64,000 nucleotides of DNA from a virus. The stretch is taken from IMG/VR virus record IMGVR_UViG_3300045994_000055, positions 1-64,000 of that record. One strand, written 5' to 3'. Positions 19,635-35,434 of this stretch are shown here, one piece after another. The notes beneath the pieces were generated by a model that did not search any database, was not told where the DNA came from, and saw only the letters and a list, made by a program, of their open reading frames with translations. Every line of letters begins with the position of its first letter. Position 1 is the first letter of the stretch. Both the position numbers and the translations under genes were made by a program.

Positions 19635-19838
19635 TTAATCTCTGCCCCAGTCAACCCTGTCCCACAACCGTTCATGTATCCAGTATAGCACGGTGTTAAA
19701 TGATAGTTGAATGAGTGCAATAGTACTCGAGGTAGACAGGTTGCCTAATATGGCATATGATATAGCAAAGGTTGCACCACTGCCGCATATACGCCAGCTT
19801 ATCGTTTTGATAAGTGACCGTTGATTAGACTCATGCAT
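19635..19838 (-). CDS. DUF2061-type small membrane protein
   Basis: The ATG at 19838 gives 67 residues, the usual size of this family; a longer frame would need a TTG at 19862 and overlaps the kinase gene more. The pattern E-S-N-Q-R-S-L-I-K-T-I-S-W-R-I, two hydrophobic segments (A-T-F-A-I-S-Y-A-I-L; I-A-L-I-Q-L-S-F) and a final Y-W-I-H-E-R-L-W match DUF2061 predicted inner-membrane proteins. In bacteria these often accompany APS-kinase or sulfation genes; here it directly follows an APS-kinase-like gene. Function unknown. Confidence 0.85.
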   Translation of the reverse strand: MHESNQRSLIKTISWRICGSGATFAISYAILGNLSTSSTIALIQLSFNTVLYWIHERLWDRVDWGRD

Positions 19839-20256
19839 ACATTTTTGCAGATATGCGGTCAACTATTATCTCGCTCCACCATTTACAATCTTGTGTAGTT
19901 ACCCGAAGATCATATTTTGAAGGAGGAACAAAGACTTTGTTTGTATCTTCATATCGACCTTCTTTGATTGTGTCTACATAGATTACAATATCAGGATCGA
20001 TGTTGGTGCGCATAATAGGCAGCGGACACACCATGTCAATTACGATAATGGACTTGCCTGATGCATCTGCTAAGTCACGCATACGTGTGCTTTGGCGTAT
20101 GCGTCCTTCTTCACTGAAGTCCCAATCTTCATTCTCTTTACGTACTTTGTCGGCATTGAGCCACAGTACACCAGTCCTAAAAAACAGGCCCGAGATCACA
20201 GCTTGCGCTAGTGTAGTTTTACCTGATCCCGGCAGGCCCATTATTAGAACTATCAT
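19831..20256 (-). CDS. APS-kinase-like P-loop kinase (CysC-like)
   Basis: This 141-residue kinase has Walker A G-L-P-G-S-G-K-T (7-14), L-N-A-D-K-V-R, D-W-D-F-S-E-E-G-R-I-R-Q and V-C-P-L-P-x2-R, followed by E-G-R-Y-E-D-T-N-K. This resembles adenylylsulfate kinases, which phosphorylate APS to PAPS, the sulfate donor, but it is shorter than typical CysC (about 200 residues), so a different small substrate is possible. Its start overlaps the carbamoyltransferase stop (ATGA) and its end overlaps the DUF2061 gene. Confidence 0.85.
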   Translation of the reverse strand: MIVLIMGLPGSGKTTLAQAVISGLFFRTGVLWLNADKVRKENEDWDFSEEGRIRQSTRMRDLADASGKSIIVIDMVCPLPIMRTNIDPDIVIYVDTIKEGRYEDTNKVFVPPSKYDLRVTTQDCKWWSEIIVDRISAKMYA

Positions 20257-21740
20257 GAATAAACTTTAACTCCATATTCTTTTTCGAAACGTTGTGCATC
20301 CTTAACGTCATTGACAATAGGTTCGCCGCGAATGTTTAAACTCGTGTTTAGCAGCATAGGACAGCCTGTTATAGCGTACCACGCTTCTAGTAGACCACGA
20401 ACACCAGAGACACAGTCTTTAGGCACTGTTTGTACTCGGCTCGTTCCGTCTTTATGCACTATAGCAGGATACTTTTGCGGCTCACGACATTGTGCAACCA
20501 CTTGCATATAAGGACTAAGTGGCATGTTTTTGGGCATGTCAAAAAATCGATCAACATGCTCTTCCAATATAATAGGAGCAAACGGGCGGAACTTTTGACG
20601 TTGCTTGATTTCGTTTACTTTGTCTTTAATCTCTTTACCACGCGGATCAGCAAGCAAGCTTCTGTTGCCTAGTGCACGTGGCCCAAACTCTGCTTGTCCA
20701 GATGCAACACCAACGATTTGATTTGATAGCAGCTCATTGAGCAGCTTGTCAACTGGGTATGGTCCGGGAATAAAATTGCCCAGGTACGGGTGCTTCCAGT
20801 CTAGCTTCTTTCCGTATGCTAGTGCGGCGGCTCCTAAACTAGAGCCTGCGTCACCTGGGTTAGGCATGATCCAAATATTCTTGAAATATTTCCCAAGGTT
20901 GTTATTGGCGAGACAATTAAGTGCAACACCGCCCATGTATACCAAGTTTTCAGAGTCACCAAGTGCTTGCGCCTTCTTCATTACAGTATAGATTAGTTTT
21001 TCAGCAAGGTGTTGCCCTGCTGCGGCAATATCGTATTTGTTCCATTGTGCAATGTAGTCCCCACATAATCCCATATGCAAATTTCTAGTAAACGTCAACG
21101 TTGCAGGGTCAGAAACTAAGTCTTGCGCAAATGTACCAGCAAGTGAGCTATTACCGTAAGCAGCCATTCCCATCAATATGTATTCTTCGTCCATTGGGCG
21201 CAAGCCTACTTCTTGAGTCAAAGCTGAATACATCAAGCCAATGCTGTGTGGGTATTTTTGCCCCCAAAGTTTTTTGTACTTTGCTTTGCCTTTGTCGTCA
21301 TAGTGTGCGGCATAGATACTAATTGTGTCAAATTCACCAACTGCGTCAATGACTACCACAGTAGCTTTGTCGTACGGACTTGTTTGGAAACCTGCGGCAG
21401 CGTGAGAAAGATGATGGTTCCAGCAAGATGTAGATCCTTTGAAGCTTGTGAAATGTGGTCCGAGTTGTTTGTGCAGGACTTGACTTAGTGTTATCTTACC
21501 CCATTCAATACCTTGACCCGAGTACAATTGACGCAACTGTTTTACTAATGGACGTTCGTAATACGCAATGTGCTCTACATTGTAGTATCCCAAAATATTT
21601 GCTAGGCCAGGGCAAATATTAGGATCGCTTTTCTCTTTTGAATAGCGCTCACTGTGTGACGCATATAAAATTTTACCGTCAGCCCCAATAACGCTTAAGC
21701 CTGCGTCATGAAATCCAGCTGATATTCCTACTATTGGCAT
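20253..21740 (-). CDS. NodU/CmcH-family carbamoyltransferase
   Basis: This 495-residue enzyme would transfer a carbamoyl group from carbamoyl phosphate, via carbamoyl-adenylate, to a hydroxyl. The Kae1/YrdC-like N-terminal part shows G-I-S-A-G-F-H-D-A-G, N-H-H-L-S-H-A-A-A, V-I-D-A-V-G-E and G-G-V-A-L-N-C. The C-terminal part shows E-F-G-P-R-A-L-G-N-R-S, F-R-P-F-A-P and L-N-T-S-L-N-I-R-G-E-P-I-V. It starts 1 base after the SGNH hydrolase and is coupled to the kinase. Relatives decorate antibiotics, Nod factors or sugars; the acceptor here is unknown, possibly a glycan or modified nucleotide. Confidence 0.93.
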   Translation of the reverse strand: MPIVGISAGFHDAGLSVIGADGKILYASHSERYSKEKSDPNICPGLANILGYYNVEHIAYYERPLVKQLRQLYSGQGIEWGKITLSQVLHKQLGPHFTSFKGSTSCWNHHLSHAAAGFQTSPYDKATVVVIDAVGEFDTISIYAAHYDDKGKAKYKKLWGQKYPHSIGLMYSALTQEVGLRPMDEEYILMGMAAYGNSSLAGTFAQDLVSDPATLTFTRNLHMGLCGDYIAQWNKYDIAAAGQHLAEKLIYTVMKKAQALGDSENLVYMGGVALNCLANNNLGKYFKNIWIMPNPGDAGSSLGAAALAYGKKLDWKHPYLGNFIPGPYPVDKLLNELLSNQIVGVASGQAEFGPRALGNRSLLADPRGKEIKDKVNEIKQRQKFRPFAPIILEEHVDRFFDMPKNMPLSPYMQVVAQCREPQKYPAIVHKDGTSRVQTVPKDCVSGVRGLLEAWYAITGCPMLLNTSLNIRGEPIVNDVKDAQRFEKEYGVKVYS

Positions 21741-21741
21741 A

Positions 21742-22383
21742 TTAAGACCATCCTAATTCTTTGATTTTATCTAGCACTTTATTTGCCACGACACGGTGAC
21801 CGTCATCTAAAAAGTGACCGTTTGGCCCTTGGGGAAGCCCGTAAGTCCATTCCGCCATACCTGTCCCTAATATCTCGTCAACAAAATATGTAGCATCCAC
21901 TTGTTTTCGCAACTCAGTGAATTTATGCTTGAATTTATTTTTATAGTATTCGTTACTAACGACCGGCATCATTATATAACGGATGTTGTTTAACTTTAAA
22001 AATGATTGCGCTAAAATAACATTCACTAAGTATTGCTTATAAATGTGTTCGTCATTGTAGTGTTTATTGATGTAGTCAACTAACTCTTTTCGTCCATGTC
22101 GCACCCATTTTCCAGTGTATCCTGGCCATATATCGTATACACCTTCTTCGTCTGCAAACTCCATCCTACCTGGTGACGTCCAACCTATTAGGACTACATC
22201 ATCAGGCGTTGCATGTTCTACTATATTTCGTACTACTTGTGTATTGCCACCGGAAGGTATACCACGGTTATCAACAGTGGCATTCAATTCTGCCGCAACT
22301 AGGCAAGGCCACGCATTGGTGCGGTCCTCTAGTTCTTCACCATATGTAAAGCTATCACCTACGGCTAATATGTTTTTAATCAT
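21742..22383 (-). CDS. SGNH/GDSL-type hydrolase
   Basis: This 213-residue protein has block I G-D-S-F-T-Y-G with nucleophile S11, a G-G-N-T segment (block III-like) and a C-terminal D-D-G-H (D193, H196), the catalytic dyad of SGNH esterases and O-acetyl-transfer or deacetylation enzymes. It has no signal peptide, so it probably acts in the cytoplasm. Its ATG overlaps the stop of a 33-residue gene (ATGA), and it precedes the carbamoyltransferase, suggesting it edits an acyl group on the same unknown product. Confidence 0.9.
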   Translation of the reverse strand: MIKNILAVGDSFTYGEELEDRTNAWPCLVAAELNATVDNRGIPSGGNTQVVRNIVEHATPDDVVLIGWTSPGRMEFADEEGVYDIWPGYTGKWVRHGRKELVDYINKHYNDEHIYKQYLVNVILAQSFLKLNNIRYIMMPVVSNEYYKNKFKHKFTELRKQVDATYFVDEILGTGMAEWTYGLPQGPNGHFLDDGHRVVANKVLDKIKELGWS

Positions 22384-22484: not shown

Positions 22485-23564
22485 TTATTTAAGCAATTTA
22501 ATTTGCTGCTCCATGTAATCTTTGTCAGACCATTTGTAGTCGAATCCACAGTATGCTTGGTTTGTTTCTATGCTGCGAACGTTTAAGTGCCTGCTTAACT
22601 TTTTCCATACACGACGATGGCGGTCTGTTTCAAATGTTCGGCGTAAATCTACTTGTCCTACTTGTGGGTGTCCAATTGTTAATGACTTATCGTTGGGATC
22701 AAAGTTATTTGCAATAAGCCATTGTTTGAATTTCTCAAGTTCTTGTTGCATATACAAGTACGATCCTGGATTCTTCGCCCATTCAATGTCAAAGTCTCCC
22801 GCTGCTTCTGTTTGTGATCGCATTGCCACAGTTATTAACTCAGATACGTTTCTTCCTTCGTCTTGGAATACTTCCCAGTGATGTTTTCCCACTGCTTTGT
22901 TAACCCCCACATAAACTGCACCTTGTGAACGGCAAATGGTATCTACGCCAAATAATTCGTAATCCTCTTCTTCCAATGCAAACCGTGGTGCATTAAGGAA
23001 GCACATTAGTTGGGATGGTCTACGCCACTCTGGTGCATGAATATTTTTCCGCATACTCAACACTAATGACTCATATTCATGACACAACAAATTCAATTGT
23101 CTAATATGCCAACGTGTTGCATGGTCTGCTTTATTGTAGTATTGCGACATTGCGCCGCTTACGCCCTGTAAGTCCTCAAAGTACCTATGCAACCAGTTCA
23201 TTTTGTCGTGAACTATTTTGCACCCTGGCAAATTAGGTTCACCCACTGGCCCAGTAGTAATTGTATTCGCTACTGTGAATGTATCATTGATCTGGTAACC
23301 CAAGTCAGCTGCATTTATTGCTGCGATAGACTCATTCATTCGATTGCACAAAAATTCTGCATTACGCTTAGATTCCGTAAACCCAACAAAGCAGTAATTT
23401 TTTTCTAAATGGTAGTTATTATCCAACAAATGATTTAGTGCTTTAAGCCATTTACGACTTAATGAAGTATCAAAAACATCTACGTAAACTTTTAGCTCGT
23501 GCCCATCATCGGCTGTGAGCACCATTTCGATTTCATCTAACTTCGATTGATTCCCACCACTCAT
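22485..23564 (-). CDS. Conserved phage protein of radical SAM cluster
   Basis: This 359-residue soluble protein starts at an ATG with AAGGAAG well placed before it, although it overlaps the upstream radical SAM gene by 32 bases. Features include H-L-E-K-N-Y-C-F-V-G-F, N-W-L-H-R-Y-F-E-D-L-Q-G near the middle and R-R-T-F-E-T-D-R-H-R-R-V-W near the C-terminus. I recall similar unannotated proteins in aquatic T4-like phages. No catalytic motif is visible. Its position right after six radical SAM genes suggests a partner or substrate-handling role. Confidence 0.8.
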   Translation of the reverse strand: MSGGNQSKLDEIEMVLTADDGHELKVYVDVFDTSLSRKWLKALNHLLDNNYHLEKNYCFVGFTESKRNAEFLCNRMNESIAAINAADLGYQINDTFTVANTITTGPVGEPNLPGCKIVHDKMNWLHRYFEDLQGVSGAMSQYYNKADHATRWHIRQLNLLCHEYESLVLSMRKNIHAPEWRRPSQLMCFLNAPRFALEEEDYELFGVDTICRSQGAVYVGVNKAVGKHHWEVFQDEGRNVSELITVAMRSQTEAAGDFDIEWAKNPGSYLYMQQELEKFKQWLIANNFDPNDKSLTIGHPQVGQVDLRRTFETDRHRRVWKKLSRHLNVRSIETNQAYCGFDYKWSDKDYMEQQIKLLK

Positions 23565-24834
23565 ATGCTTCCTTGCGTTGTTTTAGAATATCACCCATCG
23601 TGTACTTATCGTCGCGAATACGCTCTAATTGTAAAATGCGCCGTTTTCCTGCTTGCTGCGCCAGCTTGTAGGAATCAGGCCATTGTTCATCAAAGGTGGG
23701 ACGATTTTTAAGTTGCACTAAAATATCGTGCATTTCACCCGGCGGGCAGTCTGCGATAATTTCGTCTATCCACGGATGTAATATAGCCCTGGGCATTGCC
23801 AGGGGACTCATCATTATGTCTGGTCCGAAGCTGAAGACGACTTTTGCGAGGACATCAACTCCTTCGCTTCTAGCGAGTTCAAGAATGTTTCTACATTCTG
23901 TGAGTCCCGGGAGGGTAAGAGTAAAATCGATTCGAACTTGTCTGCAGTCACGTCTGAGTCCCTCCGACCCCCTAAAGTTCTCAAGCCATTGATCATAGCG
24001 GAGGCCCGTTCTAATGTACTCCCCAGTTTTTCCCGTTCCGTCAAGGCTTGCACATATTTGCCAATCCCGAAGATGAGCCAAGATATCTGTATAAAGATTA
24101 TCACCTTTAAACTGAATTCGAGATAGGTTAGTATTGTATCGTGCATAAACTTTTGGACCGTCACCAAGCTCAATTATCCTTTTCATATACCGCCAATGTT
24201 GCTCATACATTAGAGGTTCGCCGCCCACCCAATAGACTTCTTCAACTCTATGCTCTTCAACCGCATCACTGAACTCCTGCTCAATCTGCGTATCTTGGAA
24301 CTTACTAATCTCTGCTCGCACACTAGGAATCATCCAGTTGTTCTTAGTGTTTGATAAATCTATCATGTTATGTTGGCGCTGCTCGCTTTCCCACGAACTG
24401 CTCAACATATCCCCGCACATCCTGCATTTAAAGTTACAGAGGTTGGAGAAACGGTAGTCCCAACTAACAGGCTTTACTGTGGTATAGCCCGTTGCGTCAG
24501 TGTTTTCCATTACACTCTCGTACTTATGCCCAAAGAGCTGATTAAAGTAACTGCGGTAAACTGAGGTGTTTAGCATCTTGGAATTGCATACTTCGCACTC
24601 AGGGAGTGTTTCGCCAGCCATCATTCTGCGGCGAACGTCCTTCATGTGCTCACTGTTCCAATGCTGTTCTAGCGTTACGGGGATGTATTTGCCTGTACCT
24701 GCAGAAACATCTATATATTGCTCAAAGTTTTGTGCTGGTTCCCGTGACGCACAGCACATTCTACGCTCAGTTTGCGGGCTAAGATATGTGTGCGTCCAAG
24801 GTGCTAGGCAAAATGTTTCTGGTTTATTGTGCAT
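23533..24834 (-). CDS. Radical SAM/twitch protein (sixth of tandem array)
   Basis: This 433-residue protein has C-N-F-K-C-R-M-C (C133, C137, C140) and G-G-E-P-L near residue 217, the radical SAM cluster- and SAM-binding motifs. Before them lie F-C-L-A-P-W (C9), a C-C pair (27-28) and C-E-V-C (80-83), which look like an auxiliary iron-sulfur ligand set placed N-terminally. It is one of six adjacent paralogues sharing this layout. It probably modifies a peptide or sugar by radical chemistry; the substrate is unknown. Confidence 0.92.
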   Translation of the reverse strand: MHNKPETFCLAPWTHTYLSPQTERRMCCASREPAQNFEQYIDVSAGTGKYIPVTLEQHWNSEHMKDVRRRMMAGETLPECEVCNSKMLNTSVYRSYFNQLFGHKYESVMENTDATGYTTVKPVSWDYRFSNLCNFKCRMCGDMLSSSWESEQRQHNMIDLSNTKNNWMIPSVRAEISKFQDTQIEQEFSDAVEEHRVEEVYWVGGEPLMYEQHWRYMKRIIELGDGPKVYARYNTNLSRIQFKGDNLYTDILAHLRDWQICASLDGTGKTGEYIRTGLRYDQWLENFRGSEGLRRDCRQVRIDFTLTLPGLTECRNILELARSEGVDVLAKVVFSFGPDIMMSPLAMPRAILHPWIDEIIADCPPGEMHDILVQLKNRPTFDEQWPDSYKLAQQAGKRRILQLERIRDDKYTMGDILKQRKEAYEWWESIEVR

Positions 24835-26092
24835 CTAATTTTTGCGCTAATTCAGGGAATGTTTCTTTGAAATGCGTTTTTCGTATTAAATCTAGTTGAT
24901 TCGTTATGTTCTTAAAAATTTCTGCGTTTGTTTCGTCTGTCTGCACATCGCCAAATGCTTTAACTAACTGCACTTGTAAGTAAGCAGGCAGGGTTGCCTC
25001 GTAGCGTTTATGTAATTCGTCCCTGTATTCTTTTGGCAGAATGGCAGGACTATAATAAGCAGGGTCCGTTACAAAATTGTAATGAATGTAACCTTCGTGG
25101 AAAAATTTAGAAAACTCGTCTAGCGAGTCGTAGTTGAGTGCAGAGATAGTCTGCGTAATAGAAACCTCTACACCTGACGCTTTGAGGTTGAGATAGTTTT
25201 CCACAACTGTTTCCCAATCTGTGGGGTAACGTATGTAAGTGTTTTTATCACCCAATGCATCAATGCTGCAAGAGATACGTACCTTCTTAAATGCTGCCCA
25301 CAATGCGTATGCATAAGGAGGTATGTTAGTCATATTGATCGAGTAGTTAAGCTCAATGTTCTTAGCACGGTCAGATATAACTAGGCTCTGCAAAAACTCC
25401 CAATGCTTTTTAATCAGCGTTGGTTCACCGCCATTGATGTAGATGACTTTCAAGTCGCTTGATAGCTGCTCAAGGTCGTGCCAAAATACTGCTGACTCAG
25501 GCCAGTCTAATTCAAACACATTAGAGTTAGCGTAACCAATTGGCCATGTCGTAAAGCGATCACGGTCCATCATCTGGTACTTGTCTTTGAGGAAGTCAAA
25601 TTTCTCTGCAAGCTTTAGATAGTCAGAACGCCATTGCGACGAGCTCAGTGGGTTGCACGTAACGCAACGTAGATTACAGATGTTACCTAGTCGCAGTTCC
25701 ACAAACTCAATACGTGGCGTAATTGATCCGTCTTCTTGTGTAATGCTACGTGCAAGTTCTTCCGTCATGGTAGGGAAGTTACGTGTTTCTCTGACACGCT
25801 TGCTTTCTAATCCCTTTTCCTCTTTGCGGTAGCATCCGCTACACGGTGCAGGTTCTTCACCTGCGAGCATCTGCTTACGCACATTGCAGAAGGAATGGCT
25901 GTTCATCACATCCTGCAAGTGGTTATATTTCAAATTATAAAACGAAGGCTGCCCGTCAAATATAGTAGGATCAGTAATGTCGTAAGAAGCAGAGCGAAGG
26001 CCCGTATGATCAGCCTCGCAGCATAAAGTCACATACCCTGCAGGGTGCGAGGCAATGTGATTCCAAGGTAGTGGACAGAATTTACTTGTCAT
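24824..26092 (-). CDS. Radical SAM/twitch protein (fifth of tandem array)
   Basis: This 422-residue paralogue has the radical SAM motif C-N-L-R-C-V-T-C (C139, C143, C146) and N-G-G-E-P-T. N-terminal cysteines are C6 in F-C-P-L-P-W, C24-C25 and C84-x2-C87. It overlaps both neighbouring radical SAM genes by about 11 bases. The spacing of the N-terminal cysteines matches the neighbours, so duplication followed by divergence is likely. Substrate unknown. Confidence 0.92.
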   Translation of the reverse strand: MTSKFCPLPWNHIASHPAGYVTLCCEADHTGLRSASYDITDPTIFDGQPSFYNLKYNHLQDVMNSHSFCNVRKQMLAGEEPAPCSGCYRKEEKGLESKRVRETRNFPTMTEELARSITQEDGSITPRIEFVELRLGNICNLRCVTCNPLSSSQWRSDYLKLAEKFDFLKDKYQMMDRDRFTTWPIGYANSNVFELDWPESAVFWHDLEQLSSDLKVIYINGGEPTLIKKHWEFLQSLVISDRAKNIELNYSINMTNIPPYAYALWAAFKKVRISCSIDALGDKNTYIRYPTDWETVVENYLNLKASGVEVSITQTISALNYDSLDEFSKFFHEGYIHYNFVTDPAYYSPAILPKEYRDELHKRYEATLPAYLQVQLVKAFGDVQTDETNAEIFKNITNQLDLIRKTHFKETFPELAQKLDAQ

Positions 26093-27293
26093 TGTATCCC
26101 ATTAGTATAGCTAACTCTTCGTGAGTATCAACTAAGCTTTGCTTGCGGTATTCATCTGTGCGTTTCACTTTCGCAATGAATGCTTTACCATCAGAGCCAG
26201 GGCCTGCTTCGATAAACGATACAAGCCTATCAATCTCAATGCGGTGTGCAGGTGTGAACGACGCAGCTCTTAACTTGTCTATAGTTGCACGTTTTGCATC
26301 TGGTGTCAACATGTCAATTCTAAATTCGCGTTCGCCGTGCAACATGTTAAAGTAGTCGTAATCAAAGCCTTGCCTGCTCACCCACTCGCACAGTTCATCC
26401 ATATAGAAGATGTTGAATGCGTTAGCGGTTAAGCATACTTGTGTTTTAATGTTTGGCATCTCTTTACGTAGTGCGTTAGCTTTAGATACAATTTGCTCTG
26501 CAATGTCCCAGTCTGCGCCATAACGTTCATATTCGAAACGTTTACCTACGTTGTCAATACTAAATGCCAACTCAACTGTTTTGAAGTGCTTCCAAATATC
26601 AAATGCTTCTTTAGGAAACACTGTCGCATTTGTATTGTAATGGATCTCAATGTTTTTAGCAAACCCTTCGGTAACTGCAAATTGCAACAAATCAAAGTGC
26701 TCTTGTATAAGCAATGGTTCACCGCCTGTAAACTCAAAGTAGACAATCTGCGGTAGCAAGGAGCGCAGGTCTTCCCAAAAGTCTTCGCTCTCACGTGGCC
26801 ATTGTCCTTGTTTAAGGAACGTGTACGCAAGATGGTTCTTTTTGTTTACATGCGGTGTGTACGCAAGTTCTTCTTGCGCCCACTTAGAAGACGACCAGCT
26901 ACCGCAAATACGACACTTAAGGTTGCAAATATTGCCTAGCTTAAGGTCAATGAACTTGAGTTGGTCAGGTGTATCGTTTTCCCAATCCACTTCCTTCGCT
27001 AACTCAGGTAACCGCATAAATGTAGACATACGTTTGCTTTGCCTGCCTACTGCTTCTTCGTCCCAGCATGTTGCACAGCTCTTAGGCTGCTCGCCATTAC
27101 GGAACGAGCGGCGTAAGTCTTGCATGTACTCGCTCTTGTATATTGTGCTAAGTGGTGTTTCAGTTAGATTAAAGCGAGCACCAGATTCATCTGTAATCTC
27201 TTCTTTGAACATACAGCATGGTCGTGCACCACCTGTTGGGCTTGTTTCGATGCTAACCCAAGGTAGCATACATAGTGTTTTAGGAATTGTCAT
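26082..27293 (-). CDS. Radical SAM/twitch protein (fourth of tandem array)
   Basis: This 403-residue paralogue, the shortest of the array, has C-N-L-K-C-R-I-C (C123, C127, C130), T-G-G-E-P-L and N-terminal cysteines C8 (L-C-M-L-P-W), C26-C27 and C73-x2-C76. These fit a 4Fe-4S radical SAM core plus an N-terminal auxiliary cluster. It overlaps its neighbours by 11-14 bases. It resembles the fifth member most by eye (F-I-D-L-K-L-G-N-I-C-N versus F-V-E-L-R-L-G-N-I-C-N). Confidence 0.92.
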   Translation of the reverse strand: MTIPKTLCMLPWVSIETSPTGGARPCCMFKEEITDESGARFNLTETPLSTIYKSEYMQDLRRSFRNGEQPKSCATCWDEEAVGRQSKRMSTFMRLPELAKEVDWENDTPDQLKFIDLKLGNICNLKCRICGSWSSSKWAQEELAYTPHVNKKNHLAYTFLKQGQWPRESEDFWEDLRSLLPQIVYFEFTGGEPLLIQEHFDLLQFAVTEGFAKNIEIHYNTNATVFPKEAFDIWKHFKTVELAFSIDNVGKRFEYERYGADWDIAEQIVSKANALRKEMPNIKTQVCLTANAFNIFYMDELCEWVSRQGFDYDYFNMLHGEREFRIDMLTPDAKRATIDKLRAASFTPAHRIEIDRLVSFIEAGPGSDGKAFIAKVKRTDEYRKQSLVDTHEELAILMGYNDK

Positions 27294-28611
27294 AGTTTTC
27301 TAATGTTTTTAGTTCAGTAAAGACGTTCCAGAAGTCTTCTTGGCGTACACCGTCAAGCAAGGTAGTTTCTTTCTTAAAACGCTCCCAATGCTGCGAGCCA
27401 TCGCTACCATTGATGAAGCTCAACATGCTACGGAAGCCGTTTGTTGCACGTTTAAGATCGTCTTGTGGCTCAAGCCATTTGATGTGTTCTTCGTATGCAG
27501 GCGTGATGACTTCGTCTTTGAACTTCTGCGGGAAGATGTCAGCACGGTACCAGTCTGGGCTTTGGCAAATGTTTACATTCCAATCCCTGGCGTTAATAAG
27601 CCCCGCGTCAACCCATTCTTTGTGGAAGTCTAATACATGTAATACGTTCATGCTGCTAACTGTGCTGCTAACATAGAAGTCAACGTGAGGCACTTCCTCC
27701 ATCATGCGGTGGCGGTTCTCTAGAGTCTGTGCCCAGTCTGTTCCTTTGCGCATGAGTTCGGCACGGGCACCAGAAGCATCCAAGCTTGCGCCGACGCCAA
27801 CGTGTTTAAAATGTTTCCAATATTCAAATACATGCTTATCCTTAAAGCGCATTTCGCTAAAGTTTGTGTTATAGAGAATCCGTACATCTGTTTTTCCTGC
27901 CTCAATTAGCTTCTCAAGCAATGCGTAATGTTCCTTCATGATTAAAGGTTCGCCGCCTGCAAAGTATACCTGCTCCAGATACGGTACATGTTCTAGCATC
28001 TGTTCTTCAATCCCACCATCCGTGCCTGTCGTGTACTCTACGCGAGCCATCTCACGGCCTAGTACGTCTGGTTTCCGTCCATACAGCTTAACGTGATCGT
28101 TATACCACTGCGAGGAAAAGATAGGGCCGCATGAGCGGCACTTCATGTTACATAAGTTAGAGAAGCGAACGTCCCAATAGCGGATCTTAAACTCTGGATG
28201 GAACCCATCTTCATGTGTCTGCGCTACTTCCTTAACCATGTGTCCATAGTTGCGGTTAGCATCGTTACGCATAGAGAAGGCACCGTGCTGTTCTTGTTCG
28301 TAGCACTTGGTGCATTCAACACACGGCTTGTCTGCAAGCATGTTGGTGCGCATTGTCTTGTACTTGTCTTGATTCCACACCTCGCGCATCGTATGCTGGC
28401 GCAGGTCTCCTACTGGATGGAAGTACTCTGACAGGCAACATGGGTAAGCACGACCATCAGGGAAGGCATGCATGTGGGTCCATGGTAACATACAGAATGT
28501 TTTACTCTCTGTCAGCTTGCTCCATTCGCCGTCTGTTAACTCTTCCTTCTTGATGAAGAATGGCGCTTTGCCATTGTAGTCGTAACTACCGTCGTATACT
28601 TTTTCGCTCAT
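27280..28611 (-). CDS. Radical SAM/twitch protein (third of tandem array)
   Basis: This 443-residue paralogue has a 30-residue N-terminal extension, then F-C-M-L-P-W (C40), C58-C59 and C97/C100/C103. The radical SAM motif is C-N-M-K-C-R-S-C (C154, C158, C161), followed by A-G-G-E-P-L. It starts by ATGA overlap with the second member. The D-V-R-F-S-N-L-C-N phrase is shared with the sixth member (D-Y-R-F-S-N-L-C-N), suggesting those two are close. Confidence 0.92.
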   Translation of the reverse strand: MSEKVYDGSYDYNGKAPFFIKKEELTDGEWSKLTESKTFCMLPWTHMHAFPDGRAYPCCLSEYFHPVGDLRQHTMREVWNQDKYKTMRTNMLADKPCVECTKCYEQEQHGAFSMRNDANRNYGHMVKEVAQTHEDGFHPEFKIRYWDVRFSNLCNMKCRSCGPIFSSQWYNDHVKLYGRKPDVLGREMARVEYTTGTDGGIEEQMLEHVPYLEQVYFAGGEPLIMKEHYALLEKLIEAGKTDVRILYNTNFSEMRFKDKHVFEYWKHFKHVGVGASLDASGARAELMRKGTDWAQTLENRHRMMEEVPHVDFYVSSTVSSMNVLHVLDFHKEWVDAGLINARDWNVNICQSPDWYRADIFPQKFKDEVITPAYEEHIKWLEPQDDLKRATNGFRSMLSFINGSDGSQHWERFKKETTLLDGVRQEDFWNVFTELKTLENYDNS

Positions 28612-29954
28612 ATGTTATTGTACCATACTCCCAGGCCCGGGAATGTCTTTCTAAAATCTTTGTTTCGACGTACGTCGTATTGTTCGTGAAATTTCTTAAA
28701 GTCTTGCTCAAGCACATCGCGCTCTGCTGCACCTAAGTGAGGAGTCTTTACTACGTCTAGGTAATCAATGAGGCGTTGAACTTGATTGAGTTCCATTTCG
28801 CCTAAGTGGGTGTTAGTATGGTTGTCATCATACCAATCTTGAAGCTTTACTTTGTACATCCTGCGTATGTTGTCAGGCAGGACTAATGCACTTTGGAAGC
28901 TGGGGAATCGCATAATATTTAGCGAGAAATCAATTGCGTCTTTTCCAAACTCTTGCTTCCATTGCACAATAATGTCTAGGAATTGTGGCAGCGATTCCAA
29001 GCACAGTGCATTGATTGTGTTCATCACATGCAGTCCACGTAGTTTACCAGAGCTCAATAGCTTCTCTACGTTGTTGGCCCATGCGTCCCAAACTAAGCCA
29101 TCACGGATATACTCTGCGTGTTTACCCACGGACTCATTGCTAGTGTACAGGTCAATTTGTACATCGTCCAATGCTTCCATTAGCTTGTCAAGGTCTACCT
29201 TCTCACCTAAGTTAGAGTTAATAGCAAGGCGTGTCTTGCTTGCACCTTTGTTTTCTTTGAACCACTCAATCAGCTTCCAAGTGTCGCCTGACATTAAGGG
29301 CTCGCCGCCTGTAATGCGCAGTTCGTCTAAGGTTGCGTGGAGGTCGCTTTCCCACCACTTATGGAACGCTTCCACATAAGGATTACTTGCACCGAACTTA
29401 TACAGTTGAGCACTATCGTGAGCATGAGTAAAGTGATTACGGCCGTCGCTAACCAGTCCTGTGTAGGCACCGTTTTTCCGTATATCAGAAACCCAAGTGC
29501 TACTGAAAGCGGGATTACAGTAAGAACAAGCAAACTGACAAGTGCGGTCAAATGCGATCTCCAAGGTTTTGAGGTTGACGTCGTCTGAGGCAGGTCGGCT
29601 GTACGCATTTTCTAAGTCCTTATCTTCATAAATTATTGTTTTGTATACACGGTCAGAAATGTTATCGCGACCAATGTCCTCTATCTTCCAGCAATATTCA
29701 CAACCAGAAGGGCGCTCTCCTTTTTGCATCATCTCACGTTCCATTTTCTTCTTGGGTGTGTTATGTAGTGCAGCTGGATTGGCGATCACATCTTCAACTT
29801 CTACCTTGTGTGGCAATGGGTGATGGCATGATGTTGTCATACCACTACCGAGCCATATTGTTGCGTTGTACCACTTTGCGCCGCAAAAGCTTTCGCTCTT
29901 GATGTCAATTACACGGCGTTTGAATTCTAGATCTGTTTCGTTATTTTTGCGCAT
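28608..29954 (-). CDS. Radical SAM/twitch protein (second of tandem array)
   Basis: This 448-residue protein has C-Q-F-A-C-S-Y-C (C139, C143, C146) and T-G-G-E-P-L. Its N-terminal cysteine set differs from members three to six: C24 in F-C-G-A-K-W, T-S-C-H-H-P (C43) and C85-x2-C88, with a conserved P-A-A-L-H-N-T-P-K-K-K segment between. The first member has the same pattern, so these two form a subgroup. It overlaps both neighbours. Confidence 0.92.
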   Translation of the reverse strand: MRKNNETDLEFKRRVIDIKSESFCGAKWYNATIWLGSGMTTSCHHPLPHKVEVEDVIANPAALHNTPKKKMEREMMQKGERPSGCEYCWKIEDIGRDNISDRVYKTIIYEDKDLENAYSRPASDDVNLKTLEIAFDRTCQFACSYCNPAFSSTWVSDIRKNGAYTGLVSDGRNHFTHAHDSAQLYKFGASNPYVEAFHKWWESDLHATLDELRITGGEPLMSGDTWKLIEWFKENKGASKTRLAINSNLGEKVDLDKLMEALDDVQIDLYTSNESVGKHAEYIRDGLVWDAWANNVEKLLSSGKLRGLHVMNTINALCLESLPQFLDIIVQWKQEFGKDAIDFSLNIMRFPSFQSALVLPDNIRRMYKVKLQDWYDDNHTNTHLGEMELNQVQRLIDYLDVVKTPHLGAAERDVLEQDFKKFHEQYDVRRNKDFRKTFPGLGVWYNNI

Positions 29955-31329
29955 GGTATCTACATTCGTTCCAAAATTCTTTCATCTGCGGGAATGTCTC
30001 TTCAAAGTTAGTTCCGCGGCGTTTATCGTGCTCGTTAAAGAAACGATAAAAGTCTGCTCTTTGTAGTGTAACATAGTCCTTGGGTAAATTGCTACCTTCT
30101 TTCATCCAGTCTATGTCCCTTCTGAGCCTTTGCACTTCATAGTCTTTAAAACCTTTGAATGGGAACTCAGGTGTTTCCAAATTCAATTCCATCCAGTCGG
30201 CTACTTGCTCTAGAATGCCTACATAAGCGGGCGGCAGGATCTGTAGCGATTGCCACTTAGGCTGACGCAGCAATGGGGTGTCAAACCAGACACGTTGGTA
30301 TGTTGTGCTGTGTGCTTTACGTAGATCAAGAATCCATTCTAGCTGTCGTTGCAAACCAATAACGGAAAGGTTGTTCATAGTAATAATGAACGTTAGACTG
30401 TTACGGTATGGAATGTCTGCTAAGAACCTATCTACGTTGTGCGACACACGATTAAAGTTCATGCCATTTCGTATATACTCTGCATGTTCAGGAATGCCAG
30501 AATCAAGCGATACAAACTGCATGAAGTGTTCAATCTGTGTATTACACAATGCTTTCACATAACTGTGGTACTTCTCATATAGTGCAGTTTCTACGCTAAA
30601 GTTGCTTGTTACGTTTAAGTGCAAGTCTGGCTTAGGGAACGCCAACACATAGTCAAACACCTTGTACGTATTCTTGTCCATTAGCGGCTCGCCGCCAGTC
30701 ATGCGAAAGTGTCTAAGATGTGGGTACAGTGTTGGCCACCATTCCCAAAATGCATCTACATATGGGTTGTCCTGAGAGGCGGGAATAGGACGATTACGGC
30801 CAGTGAAGTGAGAGGGATCGTTGTGCACAGTAGAAGTAGGATAACCTCCCCAACGGTCCACTTCTTGTCCCCAGGATGAGCTAAACTGTGGAGAACAATA
30901 GCTACACTTGAGATTGCAAGCGTGATTAAAATTAACTTCCACATAAGAAGGAATAACGTCATCTTCTGTCCCTAAACTATTACTTATTACGTCATAGTCA
31001 ATTGCAGCCCACGGCTCGCCGGAACGGTAATGCCTATCGCTTAACTGCCCGTGTTTCTCTACGTTCCAGCAGTACGAGCACTCATCTGGCTTCTCATTCT
31101 TAAGCATAATGACACGTTGAGCTTTCTTGTGCTCAGTGTTATGCAATGCCCCGGGATTGTCCTTAAGCTTTGATGCGTCAATCTCGTGCAGCGGTGGGTG
31201 GTAGCAAGAGTTGTTAAGTCCTGTAGGAAGGTGCAGGCTTACTTGCTTCCACTTTGCTAGACAGAGTGCAGGACCTAGTTTGTCCTTCATCTCGTCCGCT
31301 GCTGACATAAAATCTGATTTATTTGACAT
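29941..31329 (-). CDS. Radical SAM/twitch protein (first of tandem array)
   Basis: This 462-residue protein has C-N-L-K-C-S-Y-C (C138, C142, C145), T-G-G-E-P-L, and N-terminal C23, N-S-C-Y-H-P (C42) and C84-x2-C87, with P-G-A-L-H-N-T-E-H-K-K. The S-C-x-H-P variant groups it with the second member. It overlaps the upstream glycosyltransferase-like gene by 11 bases, so sugar transfer and radical chemistry are in one transcript. Substrate unknown. Confidence 0.92.
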   Translation of the reverse strand: MSNKSDFMSAADEMKDKLGPALCLAKWKQVSLHLPTGLNNSCYHPPLHEIDASKLKDNPGALHNTEHKKAQRVIMLKNEKPDECSYCWNVEKHGQLSDRHYRSGEPWAAIDYDVISNSLGTEDDVIPSYVEVNFNHACNLKCSYCSPQFSSSWGQEVDRWGGYPTSTVHNDPSHFTGRNRPIPASQDNPYVDAFWEWWPTLYPHLRHFRMTGGEPLMDKNTYKVFDYVLAFPKPDLHLNVTSNFSVETALYEKYHSYVKALCNTQIEHFMQFVSLDSGIPEHAEYIRNGMNFNRVSHNVDRFLADIPYRNSLTFIITMNNLSVIGLQRQLEWILDLRKAHSTTYQRVWFDTPLLRQPKWQSLQILPPAYVGILEQVADWMELNLETPEFPFKGFKDYEVQRLRRDIDWMKEGSNLPKDYVTLQRADFYRFFNEHDKRRGTNFEETFPQMKEFWNECRYHAQK

Positions 31330-32317
31330 AAGTTGCTGCTAACATTTGCTCAGGGGTTAAATGCATTAGCACATTATAATTGTGCTCTAGAGTGGGCATC
31401 ATTTCATTATACATGATCGCCAACTCTTTTTCACTCTTTAAGGCAAGCATGTCAATCACTTTAGTAATCTCTTCTATTTTGGTTTTCCCAGGTTGGTAAT
31501 CATAGCTTTCATCCCACCATGCACTAAACGTCTTAATGCCCAATGCTCTTATGTTGGCCAAAAAGTTTTGTGGACCTTGTATGATAAAAGGTGTTTTACA
31601 CATGATAGGCCTCCATGTTTTTTCAGTTGGGAAAAACGTTTTACCGTTAGTATAAGTTTCACATACTACTTCCACAAAAAATTCCTTGTATCTTGGCGCT
31701 AAGTCAATTGACGGAACAGTTTCTTTTCGACCATCAATTGGATACCCGACGATAGTGTCATATAACATTGGGGCGTCGATCAATAAATTAGTGGCCTGCG
31801 TGAGTATTGATGTACCCACTTCACTTATTAACATATCTAACCCAAGGTTTGCCCTATGATAATCATCAGAGTAATTGTAATGGTATGTTAACAAAGTTGA
31901 CAGTTTGTGGTTGGAATATAAATGTGAGGCTAACCACAAACGTTGCCAATTTGACCGACCAATAAAAATACCGAATCGTTTACTAAACCCTTCTTTAGTG
32001 TAATCTAGTTGTTTGCTATATTCTTGACAGCAGTATGCAAATGTGATTGGTGGGTTTACCTTAATGTTATATGCGTCGTTGTACTCTAGTAGATTTCGTG
32101 TGTAAATATTGATTTTACTTTTGGGAAAATTGAATAAGGTGCATAGGCTGTCGAGTAACTTGTACAAGCCTAACATTTCTATGTCTGGGCCCTCACTATT
32201 CAGCATGATAGATACTTCTCTGCCAAGTAACATTTGCTGTACTATGTTACCCACCTTTGATTCCAACCCACTAAACCCTAGGTCAGTATTTGGTAAATTT
32301 ATTGCAGAATAAATCAT
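31319..32317 (-). CDS. Glycosyltransferase-like protein (GT10-like C-terminal motif)
   Basis: This 332-residue protein has near residue 230 the segment F-F-P-T-E-K-T-W-R-P-I-M-C-K-T-P-F-I-I, similar to the donor-site [VF]-T-E-K motif of fucosyltransferase-type GT-B enzymes, followed by G-I-K-T-F-S-A-W-W-D-E-S-Y-D. I recall the same series in unannotated aquatic phage proteins. The family assignment is tentative. It overlaps the adjacent glycosyltransferase-like gene by ATGA and lies first after the sugar-transfer genes and before the radical SAM array. Confidence 0.65.
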   Translation of the reverse strand: MIYSAINLPNTDLGFSGLESKVGNIVQQMLLGREVSIMLNSEGPDIEMLGLYKLLDSLCTLFNFPKSKINIYTRNLLEYNDAYNIKVNPPITFAYCCQEYSKQLDYTKEGFSKRFGIFIGRSNWQRLWLASHLYSNHKLSTLLTYHYNYSDDYHRANLGLDMLISEVGTSILTQATNLLIDAPMLYDTIVGYPIDGRKETVPSIDLAPRYKEFFVEVVCETYTNGKTFFPTEKTWRPIMCKTPFIIQGPQNFLANIRALGIKTFSAWWDESYDYQPGKTKIEEITKVIDMLALKSEKELAIMYNEMMPTLEHNYNVLMHLTPEQMLAATYVK

Positions 32318-33207
32318 TCTCTTGTCATGATCCCTGGGTCTTTGTACCCTGCTCTGTAGTGGTGCTTGAAGAATTTGCTTTGCTGTGCATCCATATCTAG
32401 AATAGGTAGACCAAGCCTAGTACGTACTGCTTCACTAAACTCAATGCCAGCAAAGTCTCTATTTTGATATTGATCCCACAGTTCCTTTAACTTTGTAAAG
32501 TCTTGTACGTCTTTGTAGTTCCAGTCTGTTAGCATTGTCATGTACGTACCAAGGCGTGCGCCATAAATTGCGTATATACCATTCTCTGCATCGCAACCGA
32601 CATTATGCCAAATAGTTAAGTTGTCCATGTTACGCTGTACTACCGCAGTCTTGAACTCTTCTAGTGTAGGTTTTTTGCCACGATTAAGAGACATCTTAAC
32701 ACCTTCCCTAAACCCGGCGCGCCAGGCTTGAAACGGTGTACCGTTAGGGTACGTTGTAGAATAACAACCGCCCATGGCCCAGTACTTCGGGTCAAAGCAG
32801 AATTCGACATCAGTTTCATCGCTCCCAGTTGATGCTTCGTGTGTCTGCATATTCATGACAAAATCTTTAGTCCAGCAAGAGATGCCTCCGTTGCCGTACA
32901 TTAGTCCGTTTACTTCGTTACGTGCTTTCCAGCGGAAAACACTCTCGCGATTAGAATCGTCTATTGTTAGTTGCTTGTTAAAGAAAGCAGGGTCAGGTAT
33001 ATTATCGCCGTCAATAAGTATAAAACGTTCAGTATCAGAAGCCATCGCAGCGCCTTTATGAGCTGCGTCTGATCCCACAATCCCATCCACCCTCTTAGCC
33101 CATGGTACCATGTTTTGAAGCTTGATCCAAAACTCTTCTTTTTTAGGTTCGTCATATGTTAGGAAAATGCAGTCTAAGTCTGCAACGTCAATTAACTCTG
33201 TACTCAT
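32314..33207 (-). CDS. Glycosyltransferase-like (GT-A, DxD) protein
   Basis: The longer frame begins with TTG at 33243; the ATG at 33207 is preferred and gives 297 residues. F-L-T-Y-D-E near the start, then F-I-L-I-D-G-D-N with the D-x-D-like D-G-D at about 66-68, and W-x-A-R-N-E-V-N-G-L-M-Y-G-N-G fit a GT-A nucleotide-sugar transferase. Its C-terminal F-Q-A-W-R-A-G-F-R-E recurs in the last module of the 939-residue repeat protein. It overlaps the upstream gene by 20 bases. Confidence 0.75.
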   Translation of the reverse strand: MSTELIDVADLDCIFLTYDEPKKEEFWIKLQNMVPWAKRVDGIVGSDAAHKGAAMASDTERFILIDGDNIPDPAFFNKQLTIDDSNRESVFRWKARNEVNGLMYGNGGISCWTKDFVMNMQTHEASTGSDETDVEFCFDPKYWAMGGCYSTTYPNGTPFQAWRAGFREGVKMSLNRGKKPTLEEFKTAVVQRNMDNLTIWHNVGCDAENGIYAIYGARLGTYMTMLTDWNYKDVQDFTKLKELWDQYQNRDFAGIEFSEAVRTRLGLPILDMDAQQSKFFKHHYRAGYKDPGIMTRE

Positions 33208-33562
33208 AGTATTCGATATCTGTGTATGTTTCGTCTTGCTCAATAATTAAATTGGCATGGTTCTTTACTGTAGGGAATCCACTAGTAGACTTGCTTAATT
33301 GTACACGAAAGCCAGGGTCACTTTCAATCTTTTTGAGCTTACGGTTGACTACGGTGTATCTAAAGTAGTTCTCGTAGTCGTGTTGTGATACAACAATGTA
33401 GGTGCCAGGTTCATGCGATTGCATGGAGCAACTTGTAATGTTGCCATCTACATTGTAGTAAATTCTGTATTCTAGTGGTTCTATGTATAGCGGCTGAGTG
33501 GCAGCTATTGCTTTGAGAAATTCTGATTCTGCATCAGTCATTGTATTTATAGCTTTTGTCAT
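33188..33562 (-). CDS. Hypothetical protein
   Basis: This 124-residue protein starts at 33562; an alternative ATG at 33541 would give 117 residues, and neither start has a clear Shine-Dalgarno sequence. It is acidic and beta-rich by composition (Y-R-I-Y-Y-N-V-D-G-N near residue 33). It overlaps both neighbouring sugar-transfer genes. Not recognised; its role in the cluster is suggested only by position. Confidence 0.65.
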   Translation of the reverse strand: MTKAINTMTDAESEFLKAIAATQPLYIEPLEYRIYYNVDGNITSCSMQSHEPGTYIVVSQHDYENYFRYTVVNRKLKKIESDPGFRVQLSKSTSGFPTVKNHANLIIEQDETYTDIEYYEYRVN

Positions 33563-34340
33563 AATAATGGACTGGATGGTATTGATTTAAATTGTTGATA
33601 CGGATCATGTTTCCATCAGTCTCGGTCATTACTGTATCAAATACTGTACGTGCATCTGACCAGGCCTGTATACCTGATTTAAGGTGCACGAAGTTAATGA
33701 AGTCCATGCTTGGCATTGTGCATTGCTCCATGCCTACAGCGTGAGCAGTTAATGCGTATAGCACATCAGTGGAGGGGTAGTCTTCATCGCAACCAATCAG
33801 GCTGGTCTTGACTGCTTCCCAATTAGAGATGATGCTGAATGCTGCACCAAAGAACTCTGCTGCGGGCCTACTGTACCTAAAGTACATTAAGCCATTGTAC
33901 ACGTCAGGCAAGTGGTTGTCATCAAACATCTTGCGATACTTGCGCACGGCAGAAGCGTTGCCTCTGTAGTTTTTACAACCCGTAGATAGTACAACGTCCC
34001 TAAGCCTAAATGCATGTAACCAATGATCAATACTGCGAGTAAACAGGAGATCGCTTTCGAGTTTAATTGTTTCCTTAAACGGGGTTAACGAAAATGCATA
34101 CGGCTCGAGTGACATTGCAGGCATGTCAGTCTCAGGCAGTTCAACTACGTAATCAAACACCTTTTCCATTGCGGGTGTAATTTCTTTGGACGTAGCTTTA
34201 TCTACAAAAACAGCGTACCGATTATTTTTTTGCGTTGCTTTAATGTTCTTTGCTTGCATATACGCAAGGCGCAGGTAGTCAGTCTCCGCGGAGTTAATAG
34301 CAAACGTGGCAAAGCCTAATTGTTCTTTGTGGTTAAACAC
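33534..34340 (-). CDS. Glycosyltransferase-like protein, GTG start
   Basis: The frame extends to 34406, but GAGGAG lies just upstream of a GTG at 34340 (overlapping the previous stop by 8 bases), and the protein from there begins F-N-H-K-E-Q-L-G-F-A-T-F-A-I-N-S, matching the start of the neighbouring transferase in layout. It has 268 residues, with Y-A-V-F-V-D-K and E-T-I-K-L-E-S-D-L-L where the neighbour has E-T-I-L-L-D-T-D-Y. Likely a nucleotide-sugar transferase, possibly with an altered metal site. Confidence 0.7.
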   Translation of the reverse strand: MFNHKEQLGFATFAINSAETDYLRLAYMQAKNIKATQKNNRYAVFVDKATSKEITPAMEKVFDYVVELPETDMPAMSLEPYAFSLTPFKETIKLESDLLFTRSIDHWLHAFRLRDVVLSTGCKNYRGNASAVRKYRKMFDDNHLPDVYNGLMYFRYSRPAAEFFGAAFSIISNWEAVKTSLIGCDEDYPSTDVLYALTAHAVGMEQCTMPSMDFINFVHLKSGIQAWSDARTVFDTVMTETDGNMIRINNLNQYHPVHYYDKSYKYND

Positions 34341-35154
34341 ACATCTCCTCGATGAATCGTGCAAAATTTGCACTTTGCAAATAGTCCTTATCCATAACGT
34401 GCACACATTGCTTTGGTATCATTACTGCTTTGTCTTTCATACGCACAGCAAGTAGACTGCCTTTTGTCTGTATGCTTTCTACTTGCTGTTCTAACGTAAG
34501 CATTACCCACGGGATGCCTTGATCTTCGTTCAAGTTGTAACCAGATATGATATTGTTAGCAATAGCAAAAGCGTAGTCATTTCGGTAGCTTCTACCGCCG
34601 ACATTGTATAGTTTGCAGTAATAAGGGTAGTTACGTTGGACGCGGCCCACCATATCAAAGAGCATTTCAGCTTTATCAGTTTTCCTAAATAGTACAACTG
34701 TAGCCCAAACGAATGGTAGTGAAGTAGTACCCATTTCTTCATTAGAAGGCCCATTTGTGTCCCTGTTATGATGCATTATTTTGTAGTCAAAATCCGTCTC
34801 AAACAATTTGAGTAAGCTGTCATCTAGCACCAAGTAATCAGTGTCTAGCAGTATCGTTTCTTCGTATGGTGAGAAAGCGTAGGCTGTATAGCGATCAAAA
34901 TTCTTCCACTGTACTTGTACATCGCTCAGGTCAGAACGAAAGTTGCCGTTTTTGGCATCTACTCTGTGCACGACATGGAAATCAAATTTGGGATCACCTG
35001 CCATATCAGTCACTAGCGTAACTGGCAGCTTCAGGTATTTTTCAATTAGTCTGGCGGCGTTATCTGCAATTCCAACGTAGTTTACAGTGGGCGAGTTGAA
35101 TGCAAATAGTATTACACCGCGCTTAGACTTTGCGGATTTGTTTGAGTTCGGCAT
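34333..35154 (-). CDS. Glycosyltransferase-like (GT-A) protein
   Basis: This 273-residue protein begins with a polar tail, then G-V-I-L-F-A-F-N-S, L-P-V-T-L-V-T-D and Y-E-E-T-I-L-L-D-T-D-Y-L-V-L, where D-T-D is a D-x-D-type metal and nucleotide-sugar site. It fits GT-A transferases broadly similar to family 8. It overlaps the gene before it by 32 bases and the gene after it by 8 bases. The acceptor could be a tail protein or host glycan. Confidence 0.75.
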   Translation of the reverse strand: MPNSNKSAKSKRGVILFAFNSPTVNYVGIADNAARLIEKYLKLPVTLVTDMAGDPKFDFHVVHRVDAKNGNFRSDLSDVQVQWKNFDRYTAYAFSPYEETILLDTDYLVLDDSLLKLFETDFDYKIMHHNRDTNGPSNEEMGTTSLPFVWATVVLFRKTDKAEMLFDMVGRVQRNYPYYCKLYNVGGRSYRNDYAFAIANNIISGYNLNEDQGIPWVMLTLEQQVESIQTKGSLLAVRMKDKAVMIPKQCVHVMDKDYLQSANFARFIEEMCV

Positions 35155-35434
35155 GTTGCTGGGACCAACGGTTCATCACCTTTTGGTAATGTTGCTGTGC
35201 TGTGACTAGAAAGACTTGCTTGTCTACTTCAATTGGGTTTTGGTACGAGTCTTCCAAAAACAGTTCGTCAATGGGCCAAGTTGCCACAAACGCTAGAAGC
35301 TCTGGTGTAATTTTGAATAGCCCACCATTGTGTGCAAAATGGAGATCAGTTTGAATCTGTTCCCGTAGAATGGTTTTGTTGACTTGATAGTCGGTAGATT
35401 TTTTGATTTGATCTACGATTGGTTGAATGGTCAT
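35123..35434 (-). CDS. Conserved T4-like phage hypothetical protein
   Basis: This 103-residue protein contains S-T-D-Y-Q-V-N-K-T-I-L-R-E, L-F-K-I-T-P-E-L-L-A-F-V-A-T-W-P-I-D-E and Q-H-Y-Q-K-V-M-N-R-W, a series I recall from a small protein next to tail-fibre genes of T4-like cyanophages. It starts 8 bases past the terminator that closes the tail module and is first in the long leftward operon. Function unknown. Confidence 0.82.
   Translation of the reverse strand: MTIQPIVDQIKKSTDYQVNKTILREQIQTDLHFAHNGGLFKITPELLAFVATWPIDELFLEDSYQNPIEVDKQVFLVTAQQHYQKVMNRWSQQHAELKQIRKV

Follow-up and report, generated by a model that had tools for sequence, protein, structure and literature searches.

The host-recognition cluster of pelagimyophages is the closest described setting for the genes reported here: according to the part of PMC7029224 that treats it, tail fibres, GT8 genes and cassettes of radical S-adenosylmethionine (radical SAM, rSAM) genes share one variable region, bounded by VrlC and gp14. 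At the level of single proteins, N_Twi_rSAM (NCBIfam NF033640, curated cut-off 170 bits) is a named family for which we found no known substrate, and a literature search under the terms tried found no paper naming an N-terminal-twitch family. Here we describe a run of six such genes in a stretch of 64,000 nucleotides (positions 1 to 64,000 of IMG/VR record IMGVR_UViG_3300045994_000055; hereafter the window) of a tailed bacterial virus known from a metagenome, whose record is 134,351 bases long. Many related loci keep these genes in the order A-B-C-D-F, tied to a conserved partner protein (U359) and to carbohydrate-related neighbours, which makes the question of their substrate testable.

Six overlapping genes of the N_Twi_rSAM family

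The run comprises six minus-strand open reading frames (ORFs) of 403-462 amino acids, spanning 31329 to 23533 and named here by lineage from A to F (Table 1). Each gene shares 4-14 bp with its neighbour in the run, while the lineage F gene (23533-24834) has 32 bp in common with the next gene, which encodes the 359-amino-acid U359. Each of the six proteins carries CxxxCxxC and GGEP, a pair present in no ORF of at least 80 amino acids found outside the run in the 134-kb record. All six match NF033640 over their full length with 290-390 bits, so far above the cut-off that the resemblance is no chance effect, and the protein type thus already carries a name; that the run proteins belong to this family is practically certain. 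These ORFs and scores bear out the original prediction, made from the letters of the window, of six adjacent, overlapping radical SAM genes with both motifs. Three more distant rSAM genes lie elsewhere in the record (2371-3516, 13914-14852 and 69619-70626), each scoring under the cut-off. No flavodoxin was found in the record, so the reductant is presumably host-derived, and Rfam and tRNA scans returned nothing.

A twitch-type domain ahead of the radical SAM core

For the N-terminus of C, D and E the Pfam SPASM match exceeded the gathering score, which F narrowly missed. Used as a profile, lineage C with the other five proteins found the C-terminal twitch domain of BtrN (PDB 4m7t, residues 184-258), with four cysteines aligned between that domain and the N-terminal region of the run proteins. 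Across an alignment of 442 representatives of A-F, C40, C58, C100 and C103 (numbered in the 27280-28611 protein, lineage C) are kept in nearly all members, and the three core cysteines and the GGE of GGEP are nearly invariant; in the SCxHP type (A and B), Y or H takes the place of C59, the second cysteine of the 'CC' pair. The AlphaFold2 model of the lineage C protein is confident (predicted local distance difference test, pLDDT, 94) and shows strands and a helix at the cysteine positions, where the hairpin and helix of a twitch domain are expected. Sequence and model thus support a twitch-type auxiliary-cluster domain ahead of the core, with a predicted cluster site. The 442-sequence alignment confirmed the order of N-terminal cysteines that had been read from the window, and the auxiliary-cluster region postulated from them gains support from the SPASM matches, the BtrN alignment and the model, whose secondary structure fits a twitch hairpin and helix; the cluster itself is a prediction. 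The rSAM gene at 2371-3516, on the plus strand, likewise has N-terminal cysteines.

Six lineages in one order

Two scans of viral contigs, with lineage C or U359 as the query, yielded 144 loci, which together with the window and the Vibrio phage stretch considered below gave 737 rSAM hits, 729 of them of at least 300 amino acids. Since these loci were found via lineage C or U359, presence counts of both are biased. In a FastTree tree of the 442 representatives, the six window genes fall in six separate clades, A-F, and grouping them as one clade was rejected (approximately unbiased test, p-AU 3.8e-79, IQ-TREE). Local duplication of one gene, which the original prediction had proposed to examine with a tree, is ruled out by this test. 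Lineages A and B form one clade (support 0.98 in FastTree and 100 in IQ-TREE), matching the by-eye division that set members 1-2 apart. Two changes each were required for C and E in a quick IQ-TREE tree, so that the borders of these two lineages are less sure. Residues conserved in one lineage only number 32 in B and 38 in F, which suggests different active sites. We take the phylogeny to show six old, specialised lineages in the run, not copies.

The order A-B-C-D-F is kept in 101 of the 109 viral loci that hold at least three of these lineages, where 3.5 would be expected at random. After near-duplicates were merged (loci in which any rSAM pair shares at least 80% identity), it was found in 28 of 33 groups (expected 1.65). 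Among loci retrieved through the carbamoyltransferase, 67 had enough upstream sequence and 41 of these carried N_Twi rSAM genes; those with at least three lineages followed the order in 24 of 27 cases (expected 1.7). Six old lineages held in one order point to stepwise, not redundant, action, as had been suggested from the window, and we consider it very probable that the six enzymes form an ordered pathway; stepwise work on a single product fits this arrangement. The longest rSAM run seen has nine genes (viral contig L081, 536-12546).

U359, a putative partner of the run

U359 stands directly after lineage F in 86 of 92 loci and in 27 of the 28 carbamoyltransferase-retrieved loci that have it. 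Most viral-contig relatives are 55-63% identical to it, and their alignment holds 41 invariant positions, many of them charged or aromatic. A Foldseek search of the PDB with its AlphaFold2 model (pLDDT 90) gave nothing significant, its profile found nothing among PDB sequences, and Foldseek against BFVD returned ten uncharacterised phage proteins. Judged against the PDB and BFVD, the modelled protein may represent a new fold.

Relatives in named phages and bacteria

Searched with tblastn, 50,697 phage records contained relatives of the run only in Vibrio phages, with tandem rSAM genes in K566 and K567, and in one marine single-cell virus; tblastn for isolate-phage relatives of lineage A and of U359 returned none. 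The single relatives that the original prediction placed in T4-like cyanophages were not found in these records, and the literature search found nothing on rSAM with cyanophage or with N-terminal twitch. The best named relative is K566. PagP-like and LpxC-like genes adjoin its rSAM/GT8 genes (L011, 24993-26259). In phages, homologues do not always occur singly among unrelated neighbours, a pattern that would have counted against the original prediction.

In bacterial genomes, lineage-C-like proteins are mostly single and sometimes several together, in a set that was retrieved with a lineage C query and so leans to C. A mixed tree placed no bacterial sequence in the B clade, 1 in D and 15 in C; F was not resolved in it. 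In a Fluviicola metagenome-assembled genome (MAG; L178), three N_Twi-type rSAM genes have a carbamoyltransferase, a WelO5-like halogenase and PhyH as neighbours, and a Bacteriovoracaceae MAG (L162) has eight N_Twi-type rSAM genes; both loci look like natural-product clusters. Six further loci filed as bacterial MAGs (L156, L157, L159, L160, L182 and L231) carry fibre genes, two GT8 genes, gt1 and an rSAM run, and are probably mis-binned phage.

Flanking genes and sugar chemistry

The common layout reads tail-fibre genes, s9, two GT8-like genes, s11, gt1, A (often with a gtFuc), B, C, D, F, U359 and carbamoyltransferase, past which an amidinotransferase, two gtFuc, gt1, DegT and SDR follow, mostly on the opposite strand. 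In the window, the main genes between the right end and 16800 share a strand, along which baseplate, fibre, transferase and rSAM genes follow one another. The original prediction had suggested stepwise or combinatorial chemistry from the run, and the stepwise part gained support; the fixed tail-fibre, GT8 and carbamoyltransferase flanks and the orphan-fold partner had gone unseen in it. A single ORF of 4538 amino acids (40217-53833) separates the baseplate wedge gene from the fibre genes.

Several neighbours have relatives of defined type. The carbamoyltransferase is related in the PDB to NovN-, GdmN- and TobZ-type enzymes, the SDR protein to sugar epimerases and dehydratases, and the DegT protein also matches QdtB; a gt1 profile found nothing among PDB sequences. 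The amidinotransferase, encoded by 52 of the 141 related loci, has as its best PDB match StrB, an inosamine-phosphate amidinotransferase, and retains the aligned D, H and C columns in 54 of 54 sequences. Single-protein scans with GT8 and fib8 gave only one very near contig and five loci, respectively. In carbamoyltransferase-retrieved loci that lack the rSAM run, the carbamoyltransferase is preceded by genes of the gtFuc, sdr, degT or amidinotransferase type. To us the region looks like a slot in which one set of sugar chemistry can replace another, and it is chiefly this exchange that leads us to place the rSAM enzymes among those of carbohydrate chemistry.

Table 1. Features of the rSAM cassette and its surroundings in the window, from right to left
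Feature	Coordinates	Strand	Evidence and distribution
Baseplate wedge protein	53847..57221		
Tail-fibre-type protein	39044..40171	-	PHROG tail fibre match
Tail-fibre-type protein, Peptidase_G2-like end	36375..37946	-	PHROG tail fibre and virion matches; Pfam just under cut-off
fib8, conserved, between fibre genes and transferases	35499..36359	-	45 loci, position constant
Small conserved protein s9	35123..35434	-	50 loci
Second GT8-like glycosyltransferase	34333..35154	-	Same family as the 33534..34406 protein
GT8-like glycosyltransferase	33534..34406	-	Profile matches glycogenin, E 1e-6
Small conserved protein s11	33188..33562	-	43 loci
gt1 family, GT-A-like, DGDN motif	32314..33243	-	Alignment; 117/141 loci; no PDB match
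gtFuc family, probable glycosyltransferase	31319..32317	-	111/141 loci; weak fucosyltransferase match, E 0.82
N_Twi_rSAM lineage A, SCxHP type, first gene of the run	29941..31329	-	NF033640 301 bits; clade A, 63 loci
N_Twi_rSAM lineage B, SCxHP type	28608..29954	-	NF033640 294 bits; clade B, 59 loci
N_Twi_rSAM lineage C	27280..28611	-	NF033640 390 bits; N-terminal SPASM; AlphaFold2 pLDDT 94; clade C, 79 loci
N_Twi_rSAM lineage D	26082..27293	-	NF033640 351 bits; clade D, 66 loci
N_Twi_rSAM lineage E, rare, relative of D	24824..26092	-	NF033640 345 bits; clade E, 9 loci
N_Twi_rSAM lineage F, last gene of the run	23533..24834	-	NF033640 290 bits; clade F, 57 loci
U359, conserved phage protein, 359 aa	22485..23564	-	63/64 related loci hold rSAM; pLDDT 90; no PDB match
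SGNH/GDSL-like protein	21742..22383	-	Pfam DUF6071 above cut-off; Lipase_GDSL_2 weak
O-carbamoyltransferase, NodU/TobZ/NovN type	20253..21740	-	Pfam Carbam_trans_N and _C; PDB relatives
Small APS-kinase-like P-loop protein	19831..20256	-	Pfam; 15/141 loci
939-aa repeat protein, gt1 family	16800..19619	-	Several internal repeats of W.P.P...YVFGN type
Gfo/Idh/MocA oxidoreductase	15930..16817	+	Pfam
DegT/StrS sugar aminotransferase	14849..15940	+	Pfam; best PDB match glutamine-scyllo-inositol transaminase
rSAM without N-terminal domain, within sugar operon between SDR and DegT	13914..14852	+	Pfam Radical_SAM; NF033640 34 bits
NAD-dependent sugar epimerase/dehydratase (SDR)	12985..13953	+	Pfam Epimerase; PDB relatives

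A proposed glycan-tailoring pathway and its rivals

We propose, at about even odds, that the cassette builds and tailors a glycan stepwise and thereby decorates tail fibres or virions, where the chemistry and the acceptor are what we infer. That the product is a carbohydrate appears rather probable; the virion as acceptor we rate a little under even. In this proposal, GT8-like and GT-A-like transferases would start and then lengthen a sugar chain, and the rSAM enzymes would work in succession, each on a sugar-carbon position of its own, by BtrN-like alcohol oxidation, epimerisation or deoxygenation. The twitch cluster might serve as an electron conduit or substrate contact, U359 could bind the product or carry out one further step, and the carbamoyltransferase would cap a hydroxyl. 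Amino- or guanidino-sugars may be provided by the neighbouring operon (SDR, DegT and Gfo/Idh, with a StrB-like amidinotransferase in relatives), and the acceptor would be fibre protein of the virion itself, modified inside the host cytoplasm. In its most specific form, which we put forward tentatively and hold to be doubtful as a whole, an ordered line of four to six radical SAM enzymes with U359 makes a natural-product-like glycan of sugar or cyclitol units, carbamoylated and, in many relatives, also guanidinylated, and attaches it to tail fibres, and the cassette is swapped between phages like an O-antigen locus. If the glycan proposal is true, aquatic phages would vary their tail tips by chemistry and not by protein alone, and their route for decorating virions would hold more radical enzymes than any other that we know.

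Besides the sugar-gene exchange, we count in favour of this proposal the family membership, the six old lineages with their lineage-specific residues, the conserved order, the constant fibre, GT8 and gt1 flanks, the sugar-related matches of the neighbouring enzymes, the alignment of the twitch domain with that of BtrN, an aminocyclitol dehydrogenase, and the independent interleaving of N_Twi-type rSAM and GT8 genes in K566. Regarding the acceptor, a crude hydropathy scan of 2,126 cassette genes found only three proteins with at least three segments; with almost no polytopic membrane proteins, a phage flippase or polymerase is not visible, and this, together with the position of the cassette in the tail-fibre region, makes fibre protein the likeliest acceptor. 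The one-strand layout fits late expression and virion decoration in the cytoplasm, and it also leaves room for transfer to a lipopolysaccharide (LPS) core. Several points weigh on the other side. Most SPASM/twitch enzymes known to us act on peptides, and we know of no substrate or product for any member of the family. By fold, the rSAM core resembles many rSAM enzymes and has no single nearest solved relative. Late expression gained no support from scans for TATAAATA, sigma-70 and terminator signals, which gave chance-level hits only; the amidinotransferase is absent from this record; and the K566 rSAM genes near LpxC and PagP homologues favour the envelope.

The last of these points leads to the strongest rival, unlikely in our estimate yet well ahead of the others, in which the cassette remodels a glycan of the host surface, either LPS core or O-chain, in the course of infection and prevents superinfection, with the rSAM enzymes tailoring the sugars, the GT8 enzymes acting on LPS as core glycosyltransferases do, and host machinery exporting the product. 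A change of the O-chain is what the relevant part of PMC7029224 proposes for GT8 genes in the same type of region, and the carbohydrate neighbours serve this rival as well as they serve virion decoration, as do the PagP and LpxC homologues near the K566 rSAM/GT8 genes. What sets it back is that the cassette lies within tail-fibre genes on one strand and that no phage flippase, polymerase or ligase is visible, although LPS-core enzymes would need none; the polytopic flippase and polymerase of a Wzx/Wzy-type O-antigen cluster were likewise not seen by the hydropathy scan.

Considerably less probable is direct modification of a virion protein by the rSAM enzymes, as cross-links or as epimerised or hydroxylated fibre residues, with the sugar genes as a separate layer. 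Fibre genes are constant neighbours, and solved fold relatives include the peptide maturases CteB (5why), SuiB and anSME. The overlapping genes of the run, however, leave no space for a precursor gene, so that maturation of a peptide encoded within the run was rejected; the slot is otherwise occupied by glycosyltransferase and sugar genes; and the best alignment of the N-terminal domain is to BtrN and to no peptide maturase. In the domain order of enzymes for ribosomally synthesised and post-translationally modified peptides, SPASM/twitch lies C-terminal to the core; here the domain is N-terminal.

Very improbable is hypermodification of DNA, in which the carbamoyltransferase would act on 5-hydroxymethylcytosine (5hmC) or another hydroxylated base and the rSAM enzymes would elaborate it. 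A phage carbamoyltransferase acting on 5hmC in DNA is described (PMC8670742), and the window holds a thymidylate-synthase gene at 12130-12981. That protein, however, keeps the canonical Asn at the position of E. coli N177 (CPFNIASYA), where forms specific for deoxycytidine monophosphate (dCMP) carry Asp (PMC8670742); this residue is wrong for a dCMP hydroxymethylase, and carbamoylation of the 5hmC type was rejected on it, a test that bears on hydroxymethylation of dCMP and not on that of deoxyuridine monophosphate. Glycosyltransferases beside carbamoyltransferases also occur in unmodified contigs (PMC8670742). Finally, recent redundant copying of one gene, a rival with next to no probability to which extra lineage C copies in some loci might lend colour, is already refuted for this window by the rejected single clade, the core and twitch cysteines and GGEP retained in nearly all members, and the conserved gene order.

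Comparison with known systems

Aminoglycoside pathways (butirosin, streptomycin) resemble the proposed glycan-tailoring cassette in the twitch alignment with BtrN, the StrB-like amidinotransferase of relatives, the TobZ-like carbamoyltransferase and the DegT aminotransferase. They differ in domain order, which is reversed in the run proteins with their N-terminal twitch, and enzyme types of these pathways also occur in pathways for surface polysaccharides. The records of Vibrio phages K566 (OZ196521) and K567 (OZ196593) hold four rSAM genes of the N_Twi type with GT8 genes placed between them, at about 24% identity, whereas U359, carbamoyltransferase, gtFuc and gt1 were unmatched in the stretch searched. 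The pelagimyophage cluster of PMC7029224 likewise has tail fibres, GT8 and rSAM genes between the baseplate and fibre region; in the part of that paper concerned, rSAM cassettes are mentioned in passing, and lineages, order, U359 and the carbamoyltransferase boundary go unreported. NF033640, finally, takes in all six proteins at full length and far above its cut-off, but it names single proteins, and the ordered run with U359 lies outside its definition. The family itself is thus known, and what is new to us is the organisation of the cassette, with its ordered lineages and constant flanks.

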